A stretch of 26,118 nt of DNA from Bacillota bacterium (lineage in GTDB: Bacteria; Bacillota_C; Negativicutes; Sporomusales; Sporomusaceae), in the NCBI GenBank assembly GCA_023441125.1, contig JAEZQV010000154.1, positions 1 to 26,118 on the forward strand, in the 5' to 3' direction. The translations under genes were made by a program, and so were the position numbers. Under the pieces are notes generated by a model. It ran no database searches and had not been told where the DNA came from. It saw nothing but the letters and a program-made list of their open reading frames with translations. Numbering within the stretch: position 1 is the first letter of the stretch; every line of letters begins with the position of its first letter. Below, piece by piece: positions 7,987-24,212 of this stretch.

Positions 7987-9249
7987 TTACGGCAGCAACA
8001 GCCGGATAAGGGCCAGCCCCAGGCCGGCCATGCCGCCGACAAGTACGCCGTTAATCCTGACCCAGTCCAGGTCGTCGCCGGCTTTATCCTCAATAAAGGC
8101 ATTCAGGTCCTCGTCGGAGAGCTTTTGTAAGGCCCGGCTGGCTACCTGGCCGACAAGATGGTGTTCCTTTTCTAAAATAGTATGTAGCAAAAGTTTTAAA
8201 TACTCTTCCGCCTGGCACTGGAGCAAACCGTTGTTCTTAAAACGCGTCCAGCAGCGCAGTGCTTGTTCTGTCAGCCATTCAGCCACCGCCGTCCGGTAAG
8301 CGGACGGCTGCTTAAGGGCCGCCAGCACGCTTTCCGCCAGGATGGTTAACGGTGCAGCCAGGTCCAGTCTGGTTAGCTGGCCGTTCTTCCAGTCATTGAC
8401 GGCCTGTTCCCAGGCCGGCGTATTGAGCTTGGTCAGCACAACCTTGAGCTCAGCCTGAAACCACAGCCGCACCGGGTGCTCCTCCTCCAGCAGCTCATCG
8501 ACGATAGCAATCAGCTCCTGGTGCAGGGCCGCTGCGGCATCTGACAAATTGATGCCGTCAATACTCTCCAGGAAACCGGTGATGACCGCTGACAGCCAAT
8601 TCTTCCGGGCCGTGTTCTGTTTCAGTTCGGCCAGATAATCGTACAGAGTATCCCGGGTTTTGTCCTGCCGGACTACGTCTGCCAGTTCCTCAACAATGGC
8701 CCGGTACACATCGCCGCCCTTGCCCGCTTCCAGGGCCCAGCCGACAATGGCGGCCGTATGCGGCACAATGGACTGGCGTCTGAGCGCCAGTTTCAGCACG
8801 CGCTCGCTGTACCTGGCAACCGCCCCGGCATCCAGTGTCTCCGCCAGCTCGGTCAGCAGTTTATCCACCGTCAGGCTGATGCCGGCCCGCATATCGGCTT
8901 TATCTGCATAGCCCATAAGCTTTGCCAGCAGATTTACCTCTTTCAGCCGCATCTTGATTGCCTTTTTACTTAGAAAATCGCCTTCGACCGCCGTCGCCAA
9001 AGCGTCAATGATACGGTCCCGGTTGCGGGGTATGAGGGCGGTGTGGTAAGGAAAACCCAGCGGCTTGCGAAAAAATGCCGTAACCGCAAACCAGTCGGCA
9101 ATCCCGCCGGCCAGACTGGCTTCGGTCACGGTAAGCAGCATGGTCGCCAGCCAGTTGTCCGGATAAGTAAGCTTACAGGTCAGCGCTGCGGCAAACAAGC
9201 CGGCGGCCCCGGCCAGAACCTGGTTGGCCCGCCGTTTACGCGCCCTCAC
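7987..9249 (-). CDS. DUF445 family membrane protein (second of pair)
   Basis: A 420-residue protein of the DUF445 (YheB/YjiN-like) family of unknown function. An N-terminal hydrophobic segment (about residues 10-30) is followed by the family signature GGIADWFAVTAFFRKPLG and PRNRDRI near residues 45-80, a long helical middle region rich in charged residues, and a C-terminal hydrophobic segment beginning IRINGVLVGGMAGLGLALI. This suggests membrane anchoring at both ends with a helical domain between. The start is GTG, overlapping the TGA of the upstream DUF445 gene (GTGA), with AGGAG upstream inside that gene: translational coupling. It is the last gene before the bidirectional terminator. Function is unknown. 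Confidence 0.88.
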   Translation of the reverse strand: MRARKRRANQVLAGAAGLFAAALTCKLTYPDNWLATMLLTVTEASLAGGIADWFAVTAFFRKPLGFPYHTALIPRNRDRIIDALATAVEGDFLSKKAIKMRLKEVNLLAKLMGYADKADMRAGISLTVDKLLTELAETLDAGAVARYSERVLKLALRRQSIVPHTAAIVGWALEAGKGGDVYRAIVEELADVVRQDKTRDTLYDYLAELKQNTARKNWLSAVITGFLESIDGINLSDAAAALHQELIAIVDELLEEEHPVRLWFQAELKVVLTKLNTPAWEQAVNDWKNGQLTRLDLAAPLTILAESVLAALKQPSAYRTAVAEWLTEQALRCWTRFKNNGLLQCQAEEYLKLLLHTILEKEHHLVGQVASRALQKLSDEDLNAFIEDKAGDDLDWVRINGVLVGGMAGLGLALIRLLLP

Positions 9250-10484
9250 GGCCTGACTCCTGCGGCATAAGTCAGCAAAAACAGCACCATACCAACAAGT
9301 CCGCCGACAATAGAGCCATTGATCCTGATCATTTGCAAATCATTCATAACCTTATCCTCAATATAGTGAACCAGCTCCTCATTGCTAAAACCCTCCAGAT
9401 AGGTTGTAACAATCCGGCCGATCTCCCCCTGATTCCGGGTGACCCACCCGGCCAGCCAGGCAGCCAGATACGCATCCAGCTGCCGCTGCCGGTCCGCAGC
9501 ATCTGTTACTTCATTGATCAGCCGCACAGTCCGTTTTACAGCCCACTTGGCGCCCCCGGCCACAAACTCAGGGTGATCGGCCGGCAGCTCGGCCAGATTT
9601 TCGGCCAGTTTGGCTATGAGCGGCCGCAATTCGGCCTCGGCCTTGTGCGCCATGTCGGTATCTGCCTGCAGGCTGCCGGCAAACTCGCCCACTAACGCTA
9701 ACAGACGCTGCCGCACCGGATGGTCTGAGCCTTGCATGTCGGTCAGCAAACTGCGAATTTTCTCCTGGATAATACCGGCTACTGTAGCCGGATCCAGATC
9801 CAGCAAGCTCTCCAGCAGCCAGCCGACCAGTTTGCGCTGATTCTGTTTGGCTGCGTACGCTTTTAGCGCACCGCGGTAAATATCGCCAATCAGCTCGGCC
9901 ATATAGGGTTCACTGACCAGCCGTTTGATTTCTTCCAGAATGCCGTCCGCCAGCTTATCGATAAAACCGTGCTGTACCGACCATTCCAGCGCCTGGCCGA
10001 CCAGCGGGGCCATGCGCACTTTGTGCCGGTGTTCTGTCAGTAACAGGTTAAGAATAGCGTCCAGTCTGTCGGCGCCCAGGCCGCAAACAGCGTCCTTCAA
10101 AACGCCTTCAGCCAGCAAATATAAATGCCGCCTGGCCACCGGCTGGCCGGCGTGATGCACCAGGAGGCGGGACAAACCGGCATCGGCCAGAGTTTCCCGG
10201 ATGGTGGCCGCCGTTACAATCTCGTCCTCAACCATGGTGACAATGGCCTGGAAGATGCGCTGGCGATTGCGGGGAATAATAGCTGTACGGTAGGGAATAT
10301 TCAGCGGCTTGCGAAACAGGGCGGTCACGGCATACCAATCGGCCAGGCCGCCGATCATAGCCGCGCCAAACCCGCTGTTGACCAACCCGCCCCAAAAATT
10401 ATAATGCCAGGGGTAGCTGAGGCAGAACCCGGCCGCGGCGGTAATTAAGGTCAGGCCTGCTTTATTGCTGTTGTCAGTAAGCAC
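9246..10484 (-). CDS. DUF445 family membrane protein (first of pair)
   Basis: A 412-residue DUF445 protein, paralogous to the gene that follows it. It has an N-terminal hydrophobic region, then GGLADWYAVTALFRKPLN and PRNRQRIFQ, the same block as in its neighbour, a long helical middle part, and a C-terminal membrane segment starting IRINGSIVGGLVGMVLFLL. The start is taken as GTG at 10484, which has GGAAGGTGA 4 bases upstream; a TTG at 10520 would extend the protein by 12 residues but lacks a site. The stop overlaps the start of the second DUF445 gene. Paired copies suggest a hetero-oligomer or a tandem duplication. Function is unknown. Confidence 0.87.
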   Translation of the reverse strand: MLTDNSNKAGLTLITAAAGFCLSYPWHYNFWGGLVNSGFGAAMIGGLADWYAVTALFRKPLNIPYRTAIIPRNRQRIFQAIVTMVEDEIVTAATIRETLADAGLSRLLVHHAGQPVARRHLYLLAEGVLKDAVCGLGADRLDAILNLLLTEHRHKVRMAPLVGQALEWSVQHGFIDKLADGILEEIKRLVSEPYMAELIGDIYRGALKAYAAKQNQRKLVGWLLESLLDLDPATVAGIIQEKIRSLLTDMQGSDHPVRQRLLALVGEFAGSLQADTDMAHKAEAELRPLIAKLAENLAELPADHPEFVAGGAKWAVKRTVRLINEVTDAADRQRQLDAYLAAWLAGWVTRNQGEIGRIVTTYLEGFSNEELVHYIEDKVMNDLQMIRINGSIVGGLVGMVLFLLTYAAGVRP

Positions 10485-10656
10485 AATATCACCTTCCCGC
10501 CAGTATAGTCTATGCGGCAACTGGACCGTTCAGCCAATTTTCTAGCCAATATCTGAAAGTCGTGCCCTAGAGGGTCAATTTGTGAGCTTAGGCGACACAG
10601 GCGGCGTTCACCTGCCGCTATCCGTGCCGGTGAATTGCCAGGCCATGAGCCGGACT

Positions 10657-12797: not shown

Positions 12798-14465
12798 TTA
12801 CATATCCACATACGAATCCATGGCTCCGCCCGGCGCAATCATGGGTGTAACCAGATCGGCGGTGGCAATATTGGCAACCAGGAGGGACGGCCCCGGCCGT
12901 TCCCAGGCGTCACTAAGCGCCTGGCTGAATTCCGGCGGCGTATTGGCCACCGCCGCCGGCAGGCCAAAGGCCGCGGCAAAGGCGGTAAAGTCCATGGGAG
13001 CCGGCAGCAGGGAAGCCGAGTAGCGTTTATCAAAGAAACAATGCTGCAACTGCCGGACCATACCCAGACTCTGATTGTTAATGACAATGGAAATGATCGG
13101 CAGCCGCTCCGCAGCTACGGTATAGAGCTCACAGCCGGTCATTTTCAGCGAACCGTCGCCGACAATGTGCACCACCCGTTTCTCCGGCCTGGCCAGTTGC
13201 GCGCCCAGCGCCGCCGGCAGGCCAAACCCCATAGCCCCCAGACCGCCTGACGTGAGAAACCCCCGCGGGCTGTTTACCTTCAGGTCTTGCGCCGCCCACA
13301 TCTGGTGCTGGCCCACATCGGTAACATAAATGACCTCTTTATCGGCCAGCTGGCTATTCAAAGCCGCCATAACCCCGGCGGCAGTAAGTTCGCTTTGGTT
13401 GACAGGCGCAGTGTAAGTGGACTGCCACTGCCGGATGGTCTCCCACCAGGCTGACCGCTCACCGGGAACGACAGCCTGCGTAAGTTCAGTCAGGATACTG
13501 TTCATTTCTCCGACCAGCGGTACAGCCGCATCGACATTTTTATGAACTTCCGCCGGGTCAATATCAATATGGATAATGGTTTTGCCGGCGGCGTAGCGGG
13601 CCCGGTCACCGGTTACCCGGTCGTTAAAGCGGCTGCCGGTTACAATCAGTACATCCGCCGCATGCACCGCATGATTGGCCGGTTTAAGCCCATGCAGCCC
13701 CGTCATGCCGAGCAGGTTGGGGTGCTGGCCTGGTAGAGCGCCAATGCCCATCAGGGTTGTCACGACTGGCAGGCCGCATTGTTCGGCAAAGCGGGTCAGC
13801 GTCTGGCCGGCATTGGCATGAATACAGCCGCCGCCGGCAATGATAACCGGTCTTTTGGCCGCGCTGACGGCCGCGGCCGCCTTGCTGATGAGGTTTGGCA
13901 GGTCCGGTGACTGCCGGACCAGGTTCTGCCCGGAAGAGGCGGTGGCCAGATCGGCAAAGTTATAGGTATTGGCCTGGATGTCACGCGGAATGTCAACAAG
14001 TACCGGACCGGGCCGCCCGGACCGGGCAATGTTGAAAGCCCGCCGCAGGGTATCGGTCAGCTTGCCGCTATCCTTGACCAAAAAATTATGTTTGGTAATC
14101 GGCATGGTGATGCCGGTGATATCGATTTCCTGGAAAGCATCCCGGCCGATCAGGTTGGTTTGCACCTGGCCGGTAATGGCTACCACCGGCACCGAATCCA
14201 TGAAGGCAGCCGCCAGCCCTGTCACCAGATTGGTAGCGCCCGGCCCCGAAGTGGCAATGCATACCCCAACCCGGCCGCTGGCTCTGGCATATCCGTCCGC
14301 AGCGTGGGCGGCTCCCTGCTCATGTACAGTTAACACATGGCGGACAGGTGAACCATACAGCGCATCATACAGCGGCAAAATGGTCCCGCCGGGATACCCG
14401 AATACCGTGTCTACCCCTTCTTTGACCAGGCATTTCACAATAGCTTGTGCACCTGTCATGAGCAT
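12798..14465 (-). CDS. ilvB: Acetolactate synthase large subunit
   Basis: Thiamine diphosphate enzyme that condenses two pyruvates to acetolactate (or pyruvate with 2-ketobutyrate to acetohydroxybutyrate), the first common step to valine, leucine and isoleucine. The 555-residue protein has the catalytic Glu49 in VHEQGAAHAADGYARASG, the central flavin-binding type domain, and the ThDP/Mg motif GDGSLKMTGCEL beginning at residue 436 and ending with INN near 463. The GDG motif is followed by LKMTGCEL rather than the more common FQM.xQEL, a mild divergence. The start ATG has GGGGTGAT upstream. It is the last gene of the operon, 6 bases after leuB, whereas the small subunit ilvN is the first. Catabolic AlsS is an alternative, but the operon context argues for biosynthesis. 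Confidence 0.92.
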   Translation of the reverse strand: MLMTGAQAIVKCLVKEGVDTVFGYPGGTILPLYDALYGSPVRHVLTVHEQGAAHAADGYARASGRVGVCIATSGPGATNLVTGLAAAFMDSVPVVAITGQVQTNLIGRDAFQEIDITGITMPITKHNFLVKDSGKLTDTLRRAFNIARSGRPGPVLVDIPRDIQANTYNFADLATASSGQNLVRQSPDLPNLISKAAAAVSAAKRPVIIAGGGCIHANAGQTLTRFAEQCGLPVVTTLMGIGALPGQHPNLLGMTGLHGLKPANHAVHAADVLIVTGSRFNDRVTGDRARYAAGKTIIHIDIDPAEVHKNVDAAVPLVGEMNSILTELTQAVVPGERSAWWETIRQWQSTYTAPVNQSELTAAGVMAALNSQLADKEVIYVTDVGQHQMWAAQDLKVNSPRGFLTSGGLGAMGFGLPAALGAQLARPEKRVVHIVGDGSLKMTGCELYTVAAERLPIISIVINNQSLGMVRQLQHCFFDKRYSASLLPAPMDFTAFAAAFGLPAAVANTPPEFSQALSDAWERPGPSLLVANIATADLVTPMIAPGGAMDSYVDM

Positions 14466-14471
14466 AGATTA

Positions 14472-15542
14472 TCACCCCAGTCTTGCGATTACTTGCTGTT
14501 TCATTTCGTCGGTCGATACCCGGGTAAAACCTTGCTGGTAAATATCGGCGGTACGGTAACCATCGGCCAGCACCCGTTCAACCGCCGTTTCAATCATAGC
14601 CGCCGCCGGCTCACTGCCCAGCGAATACCTAAACATCATCGCCGCCGACAGAATGGTTCCCAGCGGATTGGCAATTCCCTGGCCGGCAATATCGGGCGCC
14701 GAACCGTGAATAGGCTCGTACAGCCCGGTACCGTCCCCCAGGCTGGCCGAAGGCAACAGACCAATCGATCCGGTCAGCACCGCGGCCTCATCACTTAAAA
14801 TATCGCCGAACAGATTACCGGTAACAATAACGTCAAAGCTGCCGGGATTCAATACCAGCTGCATAGCGCAATTGTCAACATACATATGGCTGAGTTCCAC
14901 CTGGGCAAAGTCGGCCGCCACCTCGCCGGCGATCTTGCGCCACAGGCGGGATGTGGCCAGCACATTGGCCTTATCTACCGACATAACCCTGCCCTTACGG
15001 GCAATGGCGGCACGGCAGGCCAGACGGACGATGCGTTCAATTTCCGGGCGGCTGTACATCTCGTTGTCACAGGCCTGCTCGACCCCGTTAATTACCGCCG
15101 CTTCCTGCCGGGCGCCAAAATAGATGCCGCCGGTCAGTTCGCGCACAATGACAATATCCACGGTACTGACAATTTCGGGTTTAAGCGGCGACTGGCCCGC
15201 CAAAGCCGGAAAAGCTTTGACCGGCCGGAGATTGGCATACAGACCCAGCGCTTTGCGCAGACCGAGAATGGCTTTCTCGGCCCGGAGCTCAGGCGACACA
15301 TGATCCCATTTTGGTCCGCCGACGGCCCCTAACAGTACGCCGTCGGCCTGGCGACAGGCGGCAACAGTATCCTCGGGCAGCGGCACACCGAATTGATCAA
15401 TGGCGGCGCCACCGGCCTGTTTGGTCTCATGGGTAAAGCTAAAACCGAGCTTATCGGCAGCCGCTTGCGCCACACTGAGCGCAGCAGCGGTAATTTCCCC
15501 GCCAATGCCGTCACCGGGAATAACTACTATATGTTTGCTCAT
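14472..15542 (-). CDS. leuB: 3-isopropylmalate dehydrogenase
   Basis: NAD-dependent oxidative decarboxylase that turns 3-isopropylmalate into 2-ketoisocaproate in leucine synthesis. The 356-residue protein matches the family length and motifs: IPGDGIGGE at the N terminus, RKALGLYANLRPVK, RELTGGIYFG, and GSAPDIAGQGIANPLGTILSAAMM, the substrate and NAD sites. The ATG is preceded by GGGAGGT. It is separated from leuD by 69 bases that contain a strong hairpin, and from ilvB by 6. Confidence 0.97.
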   Translation of the reverse strand: MSKHIVVIPGDGIGGEITAAALSVAQAAADKLGFSFTHETKQAGGAAIDQFGVPLPEDTVAACRQADGVLLGAVGGPKWDHVSPELRAEKAILGLRKALGLYANLRPVKAFPALAGQSPLKPEIVSTVDIVIVRELTGGIYFGARQEAAVINGVEQACDNEMYSRPEIERIVRLACRAAIARKGRVMSVDKANVLATSRLWRKIAGEVAADFAQVELSHMYVDNCAMQLVLNPGSFDVIVTGNLFGDILSDEAAVLTGSIGLLPSASLGDGTGLYEPIHGSAPDIAGQGIANPLGTILSAAMMFRYSLGSEPAAAMIETAVERVLADGYRTADIYQQGFTRVSTDEMKQQVIARLG

Positions 15543-15569
15543 CGTTACCTCCCTAACCCCACTTGGGCC

Positions 15570-15601
15570 GGGAGATTGTCCCGCTAGCGAAACAATCTCC
15601 C
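15570..15601 (-). other. Intercistronic hairpin between leuD and leuB
   Basis: A perfect 10-base-pair inverted repeat (15570-15579 with 15592-15601, arms GGGAGATTGT/ACAATCTCCC) with a 12-base loop that itself contains CGCTAGCG. No T-tract follows on either strand, so it is not a plain terminator. In an operon transcript it could protect or process the mRNA, setting different levels for leuD and leuB-ilvB. Confidence 0.6.
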
Positions 15602-15611
15602 TGTGTTCATC

Positions 15612-16106
15612 TTACTTTTTCAGTATTTCCCGGGTGTAGCCGACCAAGCCGCCGGCCTGGGCAATTTCCTGGATAAAACCGGGCAATGGCGGTACGGCAA
15701 ACTTTTCGCCGGTGCCGGCGTTCACGGCCACGCCGGCATCTAAATCCACTTCCAGGATATCACCGGCTTTAATATTGATATCGCCTTCGCCCAGTTCAAT
15801 GAGCGGCAGGCCAATATTAATGGCATTGCGATAAAAGATCCGGGCAAAGCTTTCCGCCACCACACAGGCCACGCCGGCCGCCTTCAAAGCGCCGGGTGCA
15901 TGTTCCCGCGAAGAGCCGCAGCCAAAGTTTTTGCCGGCGACAATAATATCGCCCTGCTCAACCTTGCCGGCAAAGGTAGGATCGATATCTTCCATAGCAT
16001 GGGTGGCGAGTTCTTTCATATCGGCGGTATTTAAATATCTGGCCGGGATAATTACATCGGTATCGACATTATCGCCATAGCGCCAGACTTTTCCGGAAAA
16101 TTTCAT
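15612..16106 (-). CDS. leuD: 3-isopropylmalate dehydratase small subunit
   Basis: Swivel-domain subunit of isopropylmalate isomerase, 164 residues, the short type that pairs with a ~420-residue LeuC. It shows [13 protein letters not shown] near the start and [14 protein letters not shown] mid-protein, the substrate-binding segment. The start ATG overlaps the leuC stop (ATGA) and has GAGGAGGT upstream, so the two subunits are translationally coupled. Confidence 0.97.
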
Positions 16107-17371
16107 GATGCTACCTCCTCAGGCCCGGCTATCCGTCCTAATACGGCGCTTGCCGCCGCCACAACCGGACTGGCAAGATACACCTCACTGTCAACATGCC
16201 CCATCCGCCCGCGAAAATTGCGGTTGGTCGTGGCCACCGCCCGTTCGCCTTTGGCCAGAATGCCCATATACCCGCCCAGGCAGGGGCCGCAGGTCGGTGT
16301 GCTGACCACCGCGCCTGCTTTAATAAATATTTCCACATAGCCGCGTTTAAGAGCTTCCAGATAAACAGCCTGACTGCCGGGGATAATGATGGCCCGTACA
16401 TCTTCATGCACCTGCCGGCCGTTTAAAACGGCCGCCGCCTGCTCCAAATCCTCAATCCGGCCGTTAGTACAGGAGCCGATGACTACCTGATTAATGGCCG
16501 TCGGCTGAATATCACTCACGGGCCGCACATTTTCCGGCAGATGCGGCAAGGCCACAACCGGCGTGAGTTTATCCAGGTCAATGGTAACAATGCGGACATA
16601 TTCCGCATCCGGATCAGCCGCCACCGGCGTATACGGTTTTTTGACCCGGCCGGCCAGATACGCTTCGGTAATAGCATCGACCGGGAAGATGCCGTTTTTG
16701 GCCCCGGCTTCAATGGCCATATTGGCGATGGTCAGCCTGTCGGTCATAGTAAGGGCGGCTACCCCTTCGCCGGCAAACTCCAGCGACTGATAGCGGGCGC
16801 CGTCTACCCCAATCATGCCGATCAGTTTCAGGATAACATCCTTGCCTGATACCCATTTGCCGAGCTTGCCCTTGAGTTCCACTTTAATGCTGGCCGGGAC
16901 CTTGAACCAGGTCTCGCCGGTAGCCATGGCACAGGCCATGTCGGTCGAGCCCACGCCGGTGGCAAAGGCGCCCACGGCGCCATAAGTACAGGTGTGGGAA
17001 TCGGCGCCGATAATAACCTCACCCGGAGCCACCAGGCCCTGCTCAGGCAGCAGGACATGCTCAATGCCCATGCGGCCGACCTCGAAGTAATGGGTAATCT
17101 GCTGCTTTCTGGCAAATTCCCGCATGGTCTTGGCCATCTCGGCGGACTTGATATCTTTATTGGGCGTAAAGTGGTCAGGGACCAGGACAATTTTATCTTT
17201 ATCAAACACTTTGTCACTTATCTGCTCAAATTCCTGAATAGCCGGCGGGGCGGTGATATCATTGCCCAGGACCAGGTCCAGCCTGGCTTTGATGAGCTGG
17301 CCGGGCTGGACTTCCGGCAAACCGGCATGGGCGGCAAAAATTTTTTCAGTCATTGTCATCGGTCTAGCCAT
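16103..17371 (-). CDS. leuC: 3-isopropylmalate dehydratase large subunit
   Basis: Aconitase-family subunit that binds a [4Fe-4S] cluster and isomerises 2-isopropylmalate to 3-isopropylmalate with LeuD. The 422-residue length marks it as the LeuC/HacA short type. The three cluster cysteines are in IGSCTNGR and [10 protein letters not shown], and [21 protein letters not shown] is the conserved substrate region. The ATG at 17371 follows AGGGAGGT by about 9 bases; a start at 17419 would overlap leuA by 40 bases and is rejected. Gap to leuA is 8 bases. Confidence 0.96.
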
Positions 17372-17379
17372 TATTTTAG

Positions 17380-18924
17380 TTACCTCCCTTGAGCCTGCTG
17401 GACGGCGGGAAATCCACAAACAGCCAGCATTTTGTTTATTGCATTTACATAAGCTTTCGCACTTGCTTCAATTACATCGGTGGAAAGTCCCCGGCCGCTG
17501 AAAGTCCGGCCATCCTGTTCAATCCAGACGGTTGCCTCACCCAGGGCATCTTCCCCGGCCGTCACCGCCTTGAGCTGGTAATCTTTGAGTCCGACCGGGA
17601 ACCCGACGGCCTGCTCGATAGCCTTGAAAGCGGCGTCGACCGGGCCGTCGCCGCAGCTGGCGGCTTCGGAAACGCCGGCACTGGTTCTGAGCTGCACCGA
17701 GGCGGTGGCCACCATTTGGTTGCCGCTGGCGACATGGTGATAAACCAGGGTATACCATTCCGGCCGTACAGCGGCCTTCTCCACAATCAATGCTTCAATA
17801 TCCTTGTCAAAGACCATCTTCTTCCGGTCGGCCAGTTCCTTGAACTTGGCAAACAAGGTATTGATGGTCTCGGCATCAACATCATATCCCAGGTGCTTGA
17901 GACGCTCCTCGAAAGCGTGCCGGCCGGAATGTTTGCCGAGCACAATGGCGTTGCGGCTGATTCCCACCGATTCGGGGCTCATAATTTCATACGTCAGCGG
18001 ATTATTGAGCACGCCATGCTGGTGGATACCCGATTCATGGGCAAAGGCATTGTCACCGACCACCGCTTTATTGGGCGGTACGGCAATACCTGTCAGGGTG
18101 CTGACCAGGCGGGACGTACGGTAAATCTGCTGGCTGTTGATATTGGGCAGCGCCTGGTAGTATTCACGGCGGGTGTAAAGGGCCATAACCAGTTCTTCCA
18201 GCGAGGCGTTGCCGGCCCGTTCGCCCAGACCGTTGATAGTACACTCCACCTGACCGGCGCCCGCGGTTACCGCTGCCAGTGAGTTGGCCACCGCCATCCC
18301 CAGGTCATCGTGGCAATGCACGCTGATAATCGCCTGCTCAATGTTGGCGACATGCTCGCGGATATACGTAATCAGGGCGCCGAATTCCGCCGGCGTCGTG
18401 TAGCCTACCGTATCGGGCACGTTAATGACGCTGGCGCCGGCGGCAATAGCCCGCTCATACACCTGGCACAGGAAATCCCAGTCGGAACGGGAGGCGTCTT
18501 CGGCCGAAAATTCCACGTCGGCAACCAGGCTCCTGGCATAGCGGACGGCCTGCTCGGCCCGCTTGAGGAGCTCTGGCCGGGTCATCTTGAGTTTGTGTTC
18601 CAGATGAATGTCGCTGGTGGCGATAAAGGTGTGGATTCGCGGGTGTTCGGCCTTTTTAACGGCTCTGTAGGCTGTTTCGATATCCTTTTCGTTGGCGCGG
18701 GCCAAACCGGCAATCGCCGGACCTTTGACCCGGGCGGCAATCTGGCTCACAGCCTCAAAGTCACCCGGCGAGGCAACCGGAAACCCGGCTTCAATGACAT
18801 CAACGTTTAGTTTGGCCAGGGCTAGAGCGATTTCCACCTTTTCTTCTGTTTGCAGGCTTACTCCCGGCGTCTGCTCGCCATCTCGGAGGGTAGTGTCGAA
18901 TATCTGAATTCTTCGAGTTTCCAT
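17380..18924 (-). CDS. leuA: 2-isopropylmalate synthase
   Basis: First enzyme of leucine synthesis: condenses acetyl-CoA with 2-ketoisovalerate. The 514-residue protein is full length and starts with the [15 protein letters not shown] motif of the HMG-like TIM barrel; [17 protein letters not shown] holds metal ligands. The last ~130 residues form the regulatory LeuA dimer domain that gives leucine feedback inhibition. An AGGT site lies 7 bases before the ATG. It follows ilvC after 118 bases, the largest gap in the operon. Homocitrate or citramalate synthases are related, but the leuCDB neighbours settle the assignment. Confidence 0.96.
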
Positions 18925-18986
18925 GCCATTACCTCGCTTTCCATTTCATTTTACTGCAGATGGTGTTTCGTACCCGGCGAAAGGAC

Positions 18987-19025
18987 CACGGCTGGCCTTG
19001 CATATAAGACCGGACGCAAGCCGTG
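18987..19025 (-). other. Stem-loop in the ilvC-leuA spacer
   Basis: The 118-base gap between ilvC and leuA contains an inverted repeat, CACGGC at 18987-18992 with GCCGTG at 19020-19025, with additional inner pairing (CTTGC/GCAAG). It is followed by TTTTT only on the plus strand, that is, against the direction of the operon. It could block antisense transcription or act as an mRNA processing element; no riboswitch class is recognised. Confidence 0.45.
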
Positions 19026-19042
19026 ATTTTTCCACTGTTGTG

Positions 19043-20543
<1,501 letters not shown>

Positions 20544-20599
20544 AAATTCCACCTCCGCTTAATTATTGGCACAGTATGTCAGTATTATCACCTGGAAAT

Positions 20600-20885
20600 A
20601 ATAAAACGCCCCTGGAACAGATTAAAAAATCTGTCCATAGGGGCGCTCAATGCGCGGTACCACCCTACTTTGGGCTCATTTCGCCATGGCTGCACGGCCA
20701 TGTTCTGCCGGATAACGGCCGGCGCCGCTGTTGCCTGAAACACATTGTGTTCAACCTACAATGTGCACGTCAGCAAAAGAGTTTCTGGGCGAGAATAGCT
20801 TAACCACTGCACCGGTTCGCAGCAACCACCGGCTCTCTGGGCAGAATCGCAAGCTTAGCTCCCAGTCATTACCATTGCCAATATT
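20600..20885 (-). ncRNA. T-box leader, probably leucine-specific, upstream of ilvN
   Basis: On the minus strand the T-box sequence AGGGTGGTACCGCG lies at 20666-20653. Stem I is visible: CTGGG (20865-20861) pairs with CCCAG (20789-20785); above it AGCTT/AAGCT and CTGC/GCAG pair, and the distal part has the conserved AGAGAGCCGG...GGTTGCTG...CCGG. The internal loop on the 3' side reads ATTCTCG at 20796-20790; CTC at 20793-20791 followed by a purine fits a leucine specifier. An 8-base-pair hairpin (20741-20748 with 20758-20765) matches stem III. The T-box works by sensing uncharged tRNA-Leu, which stabilises the antiterminator. The specifier choice is inferred from the alignment of loops. Confidence 0.92.
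20603..20645 (-). terminator. T-box terminator hairpin
   Basis: Immediately 3' of the T-box motif, GCGCCCC...GACAGATT pairs with AATCTGTTCC...GGGGCG on the minus strand (CGCCCC 20607-20612 pairs with GGGGCG 20640-20645 in plus coordinates), followed by TTTT. It competes with the antiterminator formed by the T-box sequence. Confidence 0.9.
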
Positions 20886-20901
20886 TTACTGTACATGCCT
20901 A

Positions 20902-20958
20902 CAAAAATACTCTGCACAAAAATTTCTACTTGTAAAAAGTAAGAAACTTTCCGCAGAG
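20902..20958 (-). terminator. Riboswitch-controlled terminator
   Basis: CTCTGC/GCAGAG closes a long imperfect stem whose upper part is TTTC(T)TACTT...AAGTAGAAA with loop TTTAC, followed by TATTTTTGT on the minus strand. It lies between the ykkC aptamer and the T-box, so transcription can be stopped here before the T-box is made. Confidence 0.8.
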
Positions 20959-21052
20959 CCTTTTATACTCACGGTGTAACACGGTAATTGCCGCGTTCTG
21001 CATCGCTCGGCCCAGACCTGTCAACCAGCGGAACCCTAGATGCACTTCCTTA
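20902..21052 (-). ncRNA. ykkC-family riboswitch (probably ppGpp type) with terminator, ilv-leu leader
   Basis: The minus strand shows the ykkC signature: CTAGGGTTCCG from 21039, then TCTGGGCCGAGCG, then ACACCGTGAGTATAAAAG. P1 forms between TGCATC (21044-21039) and GATGCA (21004-20999). P3 GAGT/GCTC shares its 3' strand with the terminator stem that starts CTCTGC (20958-20953) and closes with GCAGAG (20915-20910), followed by TATTTTTGT. Ligand binding would favour P3 and prevent the terminator, giving an ON switch. Subtype 2a of this family is reported to bind ppGpp and to precede branched-chain amino acid genes, which matches here. PRPP or guanidine binding cannot be excluded by eye. It lies directly 5' of a T-box in the same leader. 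Confidence 0.85.
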
Positions 21053-21074
21053 CGCGATATGTAACTTTGTATAC

Positions 21075-21103
21075 ATTATGCCAGCACCCTTGTTCTTTGT
21101 CAA
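21075..21103 (-). promoter_or_regulatory. Promoter of the ilv-leu operon
   Basis: TTGACA (21103-21098) and CATAAT (21080-21075) are separated by exactly 17 bases on the minus strand, nearly the sigma-A consensus. The expected start lies near 21068, about 16-20 bases before the aptamer. The leader from there to ilvN is about 525 bases and accounts for most of the gene-free stretch 20544-21122. Confidence 0.9.
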
Positions 21104-24032: not shown

Positions 24033-24077
24033 AAAAAACCCCGCGCAAAGTCCTTGGCAGGAACTTGCCGCTAGGGT
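24033..24077 (-). terminator. Riboswitch-controlled terminator before paaK
   Basis: On the minus strand ACCC...AAGTTCC pairs with GGACTTT...GGGGT (arms 24077-24060 and 24053-24038) with a few wobbles and bulges, and is followed by TTTTTT at 24038-24033. Confidence 0.8.
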
Positions 24078-24162
24078 TTTTTGTACCCACGGTGTGACCC
24101 TCCGGGCCCTGTGCCGCTTGGACCAGACGCGGTAACCGCCGGAACCCTAGGCACACTTCCCT
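24033..24162 (-). ncRNA. ykkC-family riboswitch (probably ppGpp type) upstream of paaK
   Basis: A second copy of the aptamer in the ilv-leu leader. Minus strand: CTAGGGTTCCGG from 24150, GTCTGGTCCAAGCG, then ACACCGTGGGTACAAAAAA. P1 is TGTGCC (24155-24150) with GGCACA (24115-24110), entirely different bases from the other copy but still paired. P2 has GCGG/CCGC; P3 is GGGT/ACCC. The 3' strand of P3 also begins the terminator stem (24077-24060 with 24053-24038) that ends in TTTTTT, so ligand binding should turn expression on. The two copies share the blocks between pairings nearly exactly, which argues for one ligand class. The role over a PaaK/ACT operon is inferred. Confidence 0.83.
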
Positions 24163-24212
24163 TATTGCAAAATAAGCCTGATTGTAAACCTTGTATACTG
24201 TATTCGTGGAAT

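Follow-up and report, generated by a model that had tools for sequence, protein, structure and literature searches.

A Probable ppGpp and tRNA-Leu AND Gate in the ilv-leu Leader of a Sporomusa-Like Bacterium

The leader of the ilv-leu operon in the window (the whole stretch of 26,118 nt that was analysed) is very probably, at a rough probability of 0.87, a two-input gate of transcription attenuation, in which a ppGpp-type ykkC aptamer and a leucine T-box are combined with AND logic. The observations behind this reading, all made in silico, are the two RNA families, their terminators, the mutual exclusivities of the competing structures, the covariation, the Leu specifier, the cognate tRNA of relatives and the conservation of the arrangement. 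The leader would thus be a well conserved natural RNA AND gate in which a global starvation alarmone is coupled with one particular uncharged tRNA. Many genomes of the class to which Sporomusa belongs have this pairing, and the specificity of its T-box varies by codon among Leu, Val, Ile and Phe.

The Leader and Its Operon

The leader region, promoter included, was read on the minus strand from 21103 to 20552, and the first ORF downstream of it is ilvN, encoding the small subunit of acetolactate synthase (20016–20552). On the same strand follow ilvC for ketol-acid reductoisomerase (19043–20074), leuA for 2-isopropylmalate synthase (17380–18924), leuC and leuD for the large and small subunits of 3-isopropylmalate dehydratase (16103–17419 and 15612–16106), leuB for 3-isopropylmalate dehydrogenase (14472–15542) and ilvB for the large subunit of acetolactate synthase (12798–14465). 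The gene order is therefore ilvN, ilvC, leuA, leuC, leuD, leuB, ilvB, and the first-pass annotation of this DNA, made from the letters alone, was right in assigning the leader to an ilv-leu operon. The genes for the two subunits of acetolactate synthase are split, ilvN being first and ilvB last in the operon, about 5.5 kb apart (12798–20552, minus strand). The window also contains two adjoining DUF445 proteins (7987–10520, minus strand), and ARAGORN found no tRNA genes in it. Transcription would start from a sigma-70-type promoter on the minus strand (21075–21103), with TTGACA from 21103, a 17-nt spacer and CATAAT to 21075; it agrees with the consensus at 11 of 12 positions, which bears out the near-consensus promoter that had been proposed.

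A search of genome contigs for relatives of ilvN returned four loci, with identities of 90% in Sporomusa malonica, 87% in S. acidovorans, 86% in a metagenome-assembled genome and 45% in a member of Lachnospiraceae. In the three closest relatives (L001–L003) ilvN is likewise preceded by both RNAs, a finding which, together with the 86–90% identity of ilvN, marks the window as Sporomusa-like. The same recurrence in three close relatives led us to reject a chance co-occurrence of the two elements. At the distant Lachnospiraceae ilvN locus there was no RNA match at E 0.01.

A second aptamer, also predicted to be of ppGpp type, lies at 24056–24166 on the minus strand (RF00442, 46.1 bits, E 2e-5, cut-off 63) and precedes paaK, an ACT-domain gene and a sugar kinase, which form the operon directly upstream of ilv-leu. 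The paaK-side and ilv-side aptamers occur within one stretch in eight of nine genomes of the genus; in the ninth, G137, they lie on separate contigs. An alignment of 30 aptamers shows UA after P3 on the paaK side in the window, L002 and L017, where the ilv-side aptamers have U.

Structure of the Aptamer and Its Terminator

Scanning with Rfam models, which had been suggested as a check, matched both the ykkC family and the T-box in the leader. Both scores fall below the gathering cut-offs (63 for RF00442, 93 for RF00230), and a default scan of the window at gathering thresholds is empty for this reason. Under an E-value threshold the ykkC core is found at 20950–21050 on the minus strand (RF00442, 54.3 bits, E 8.3e-9). 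With its add-on helix P0 the aptamer, of the ykkC subtype 2a-like (ppGpp-type) form by its predicted features, spans 20939–21053 and so extends slightly past the Rfam match; P0 pairs 21053–21046 with 20946–20939 and joins the 5' and 3' ends of the aptamer. This helix is called P1 under another numbering, and in the ppGpp class it is in competition with the terminator.

Covariation was evaluated on 30 aptamers, which we chose from 61 that could be parsed. Two-sided changes occur in six of the eight pairs of P0, the four outer pairs of which are broken in 7 to 9 of the 30 sequences. For the whole structure the covariation score is 0.413 versus a mean of 0.184 for shuffled alignments, none of 500 shuffles reaching it and slid structures giving at most 0.125; pairing is found in 94.3% of cells, versus 82.4% after shuffling and at most 43.4% after sliding. 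The computed free energy is −30.5 kcal/mol for the structure as drawn and −38.7 kcal/mol for the fold of the aptamer stretch, and a longer stretch, with the terminator formed, reaches −55.9 kcal/mol, as expected for a switch that is off without its ligand.

That terminator (20901–20958, minus strand) consists of a hairpin at 20958–20910 and a T-rich tail to 20901, in keeping with the claim that the ykkC-family aptamer has a terminator of its own. Its stem, of 21 pairs and −19.3 kcal/mol, consumes the 3' strands of both P3 and P0, so that a ligand holding these strands in the aptamer would give readthrough. In L003 about 100 nt of extra sequence lie within the loop of terminator 1 (2525–2630), and the outer arms can still pair. 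The U tract of the tail, TATTTTTGT, is short, and termination there could be leaky; coupled with Rfam scores under the gathering cut-offs, this might indicate that the aptamer or terminator 1 has decayed and that the T-box alone is functional. We consider such decay very improbable, given that many columns of the core do not vary across the 30 aptamers, that P0 and P3 are both paired in the window and that the stem of terminator 1 has its 21 pairs with just one unpaired base per side.

Which Ligand Does the Aptamer Bind?

The classes of ykkC RNAs differ at published marker residues: guanidine-I aptamers have A at residue 49, where the ppGpp and PRPP classes have a pyrimidine, and at residue 96 more than 97% of PRPP aptamers have G, while those for ppGpp have a base other than G (PMC6031431, in the part consulted). 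We took the subtype from these markers through our own alignment rather than from a subtype-specific model, the matching family RF00442 being named Guanidine-I, and residue 96 was mapped by inference to the base that follows the P3 strand. The window aptamer has C at residue 49, in a column that is invariant in all 30 aligned sequences, and U at the equivalent of residue 96, a U shared by all 24 tandem aptamers that could be parsed. Together with the covarying P0, these residues fit the ppGpp class and neither guanidine-I nor PRPP, so that on sequence criteria ppGpp is the most likely ligand, in line with the earlier suggestion.

The name of the Rfam family would speak for a guanidine-I riboswitch, since this is the sole curated family that matches convincingly, yet residue 49 is C instead of A, and the window has a covarying P0 that the guanidine aptamer lacks according to the part of PMC6031431 consulted. 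The window also scores 54.3 bits, versus 78.7–91.6 bits for at least 19 matches in the class that do have A at residue 49, and the genes of the operon are not guanidine carriers; the guanidine-I reading is consequently extremely improbable. If the aptamer were instead of subtype 2b and bound PRPP, the gate would read nucleotide precursor supply along with uncharged tRNA-Leu. The core, the add-on helix and the pyrimidine at residue 49 are indeed common to subtypes 2a and 2b (PMC6031431, same part), and the residue-96 marker is ambiguous within the class of Sporomusa, because gltB leaders, which PMC5912903 places in the ppGpp class in the part consulted, are mixed. We consider PRPP very improbable nonetheless, as the window and all 24 tandem aptamers parsed have U rather than G at the equivalent of residue 96, and the downstream genes are ilv and leu genes, not purine genes. 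Both readings were rejected on residues 49 and 96.

With regard to the gltB leaders themselves, 18 of the 31 parsed have G at the equivalent of residue 96 (for instance L008, L010 and L014) and 13 have U (for instance L043, L093 and L163).

The T-box and the Proposed Gate

The T-box leader occupies 20636–20878 on the minus strand (RF00230, 75.5 bits, E 1.8e-16, cut-off 93), scoring below the 92.6–103.9 bits of the closest relatives. Its specifier codon is CTC for leucine (20791–20793, minus strand), read from the cmscan alignment since our specifier regex missed the window. The antiterminator (20638–20667, minus strand), with the T-box motif AGGGTGGTACCGCG at 20666–20653, and terminator 2 (20597–20645, minus strand; hairpin 20645–20607 plus a T tail) are mutually exclusive. 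The first-pass annotation had described a full T-box, specific for leucine and followed by a second terminator, and each of these elements is recovered here. A tRNA-Leu(GAG) with A before CCA, which fits both the CTC specifier and the UGGU of the T-box, was found in the relatives G001 and G086 with a loosened pattern allowing 3 mismatches, a first pattern having given no matches; the loosened pattern did not find it in a third relative, G002.

How would the two RNAs work together? RNA polymerase starting from the promoter at 21103–21075 would make the ppGpp-type ykkC aptamer first. Without ppGpp, terminator 1 would take the 3' strands of P3 and P0 and stop transcription near 20901, while bound ppGpp would hold P0 and P3 and let the polymerase proceed. 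The T-box would then read tRNA-Leu(GAG) via its CTC specifier, uncharged tRNA stabilising the antiterminator and charged tRNA leaving terminator 2 to form, and full expression would require both signals. The ligand, termination in the cell and the AND output are what we infer; the AND logic is implied by the presence of two ON-type terminators in series.

Tandems in the Class of Sporomusa

Matches to RF00442 are present in all nine genomes of the genus and in at least 59 of 200 genomes of the class. With regexes for the aptamer and the T-box motif, at least 26 distinct aptamer–T-box pairs were found including that of the window, at least 25 of them in 21 of the 200 class genomes, the nine genomes of the genus Sporomusa included. 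These counts are lower bounds, given that the aptamer regex misses some aptamers (e.g., in L099) and that the tandems were drawn from the match list of at least 59 genomes, covering part of the loci. The aptamer comes first and the T-box second in every tandem found, and no T-box motif lies within 1,500 nt upstream of an aptamer at the loci examined. A competing terminator 1 is found in 25 of 26 tandems, the one missed by the test being the first tandem of L084, and a terminator 2 in all 26.

The genes behind the tandems, where identified, are ilvN, ilvB, ilvC or leuA, and in other cases periplasmic binding proteins of the Peripla_BP_6 family (L100, L103, L107) or a PEP-mutase-like gene (L160). 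In four further loci (L104, L105, L113, L139) the aptamer precedes ilvN by about 100 nt and no T-box motif is present. The specifier, read before a conserved purine plus CCC and compared with ten cmscan alignments for eight loci, is CTC in 16, GTC in 7, ATC in 2 and TTC in 1 of the 26 tandems found. Hence Val (GTC), Ile (ATC) or Phe (TTC) specifiers occur in 10 of the class tandems, which number at least 25 (L084, L085, L098, L100, L103, L131, L140, L141 and L146). All three leuA leaders (the second of L085, L090 and L129) have CTC. Among the tandems of ilv operons outside the genus, L128 has CTC and the other eight have GTC in seven cases and ATC in one.

A Promoter Element Shared by Amino Acid Operons

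A candidate operator, the element TGTATACAnnnTTACA (21060–21075, minus strand), extends over the last part of the −10 box and the likely start site. Exact copies of TGTATACA in the interval from −110 to −15 relative to the aptamer core are present in 19 of the 24 tandem leaders and 13 of the 60 single ones, and in none of the 19 leaders of guanidine-I type. When one mismatch is allowed in a slightly shorter stretch, the numbers are 20 of 24 for tandem leaders, 19 of 28 for other leaders, 16 of 33 for gltB leaders and 2 of 19 for those of guanidine-I type. Random windows of matched GC content from the same loci, a control that retained the actual sites, contain an exact copy in 4.4% of cases, and in 12.1% if one mismatch is permitted. 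In most tandems TGTATACA and the end of the −10 box overlap. A position 14 to 23 nt further downstream is seen in L043, in L093 and in the paaK leaders of L002 and L128, and this displacement favours a candidate binding site over a part of the core promoter. L087, L097 and L141 are also listed with a downstream TGTATACA, although there the element may overlap a different −10 box. Computed over 54 of 62 distinct matches, a set that contains close relatives and some probable non-promoters, the bases following TGTATACA favour nnnTTACA at 61 to 72%.

The pattern TTGAC-N18-22-ATGTATACA has 20 matches in the nine genomes of the genus versus one for the reversed pattern: 8 are ilv tandem leaders, 4 are of metX type (in the 2 of these 4 that were tested, a SAM riboswitch and MetX are present), 3 are T-box leaders and 5 are others. 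Across the class the pattern is found in 76 of 200 genomes, the reversed control giving 10 matches in 9 genomes. From 30 of the matches listed we picked 20 loci for looking like true promoters; 15 of these carry a T-box. Ten precede ilvN, one ilvC, one a carboxyltransferase, two threonyl-tRNA synthetase and two a sodium:alanine symporter (in both pairs one tested and one assigned by likeness), and four an unassigned protein (one tested, matching no family). Two ilvN loci with the promoter element, L211 and L216, gave no RNA family match. In ilv operons of the class the element accompanies the ppGpp aptamer and T-box together, either of the two alone, or no leader RNA that could be detected; TGTATACAnnnTTACA is common to ilv, metX, thrS and other amino acid promoters of the class, whatever the leader RNA.

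It is possible that TGTATACAnnnTTACA provides a third input, at the level of initiation. More tentatively, and at somewhat under even odds, we propose three stacked layers of control over branched-chain synthesis in the class, namely a DNA-binding protein at TGTATACAnnnTTACA, the ppGpp aptamer, and a T-box with a specifier that varies with the operon's genes, the element being the constant part. If so, the RNA modules would be exchangeable add-ons to one promoter regulon of amino acid starvation, encompassing ilv, metX, thrS and transporters; and if TGTATACAnnnTTACA is a repressor site, the initiation side of the control would become testable. Term-seq and start-site data are available for Sporomusa sphaeroides (PMC12456013). 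Among the papers listed by literature searches on the TGTATACAnnnTTACA/TGTATACA element or a regulon of this group, none dealt with either, judged by title.

Comparison with Known Systems

The first-pass annotation treated ppGpp RNAs ahead of branched-chain genes as established and presented the leader, on condition that its aptamer binds ppGpp, as an AND gate by its own inference. This logic stands insofar as two ON-type terminators in series imply it, but it is not new: tandems of a T-box and a ppGpp aptamer were already described as AND gates in the parts consulted of PMC5912903 (legend of Fig. 6C), PMC6031431 (Discussion), PMC7583486 and PMC9481103. Either order of the two elements is possible (PMC5912903, PMC6031431 and PMC9481103, same parts), and the main Table 2 of PMC9481103 lists 15 cases of ppGpp followed by T-box(Leu) and 16 in reverse. 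Since the ppGpp/T-box(Leu) gate is in print, the window adds one more case to those published. Table 2 contains ppGpp aptamers with T-box(Leu) only, and no Val, Ile or Phe specifiers; our literature searches, which covered PMC9481103 by its main table, likewise returned no ppGpp–T-box tandem specific for Val, Ile or Phe.

Compared with its nearest counterparts, the window shares with the T-box (RF00230) stem I, the specifier loop, the T-box sequence, the antiterminator and the terminator, differing in its score of 75.5 bits against a cut-off of 93. With the ykkC subtype 2a riboswitch it has in common the core, the residue markers, the add-on helix and an ON-type terminator, but it scores under the cut-off of the matching Rfam model, and its ligand is predicted from the nucleotides of the aptamer. 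The readthrough proposed here agrees with a folding study of another ppGpp riboswitch, in which, in the part consulted, ppGpp stabilises the closing helix against the terminator (PMC10687018). As for the ppGpp/T-box(Leu) tandem, as far as the consulted parts of those papers describe it, the window shares its elements, the order of the 15 ppGpp-first cases, the separate expression platforms, the Leu specifier and the branched-chain genes, and its own leader has no demonstrable difference from it, whereas relatives in the class differ from the published tandem by their Val, Ile and Phe specifiers.
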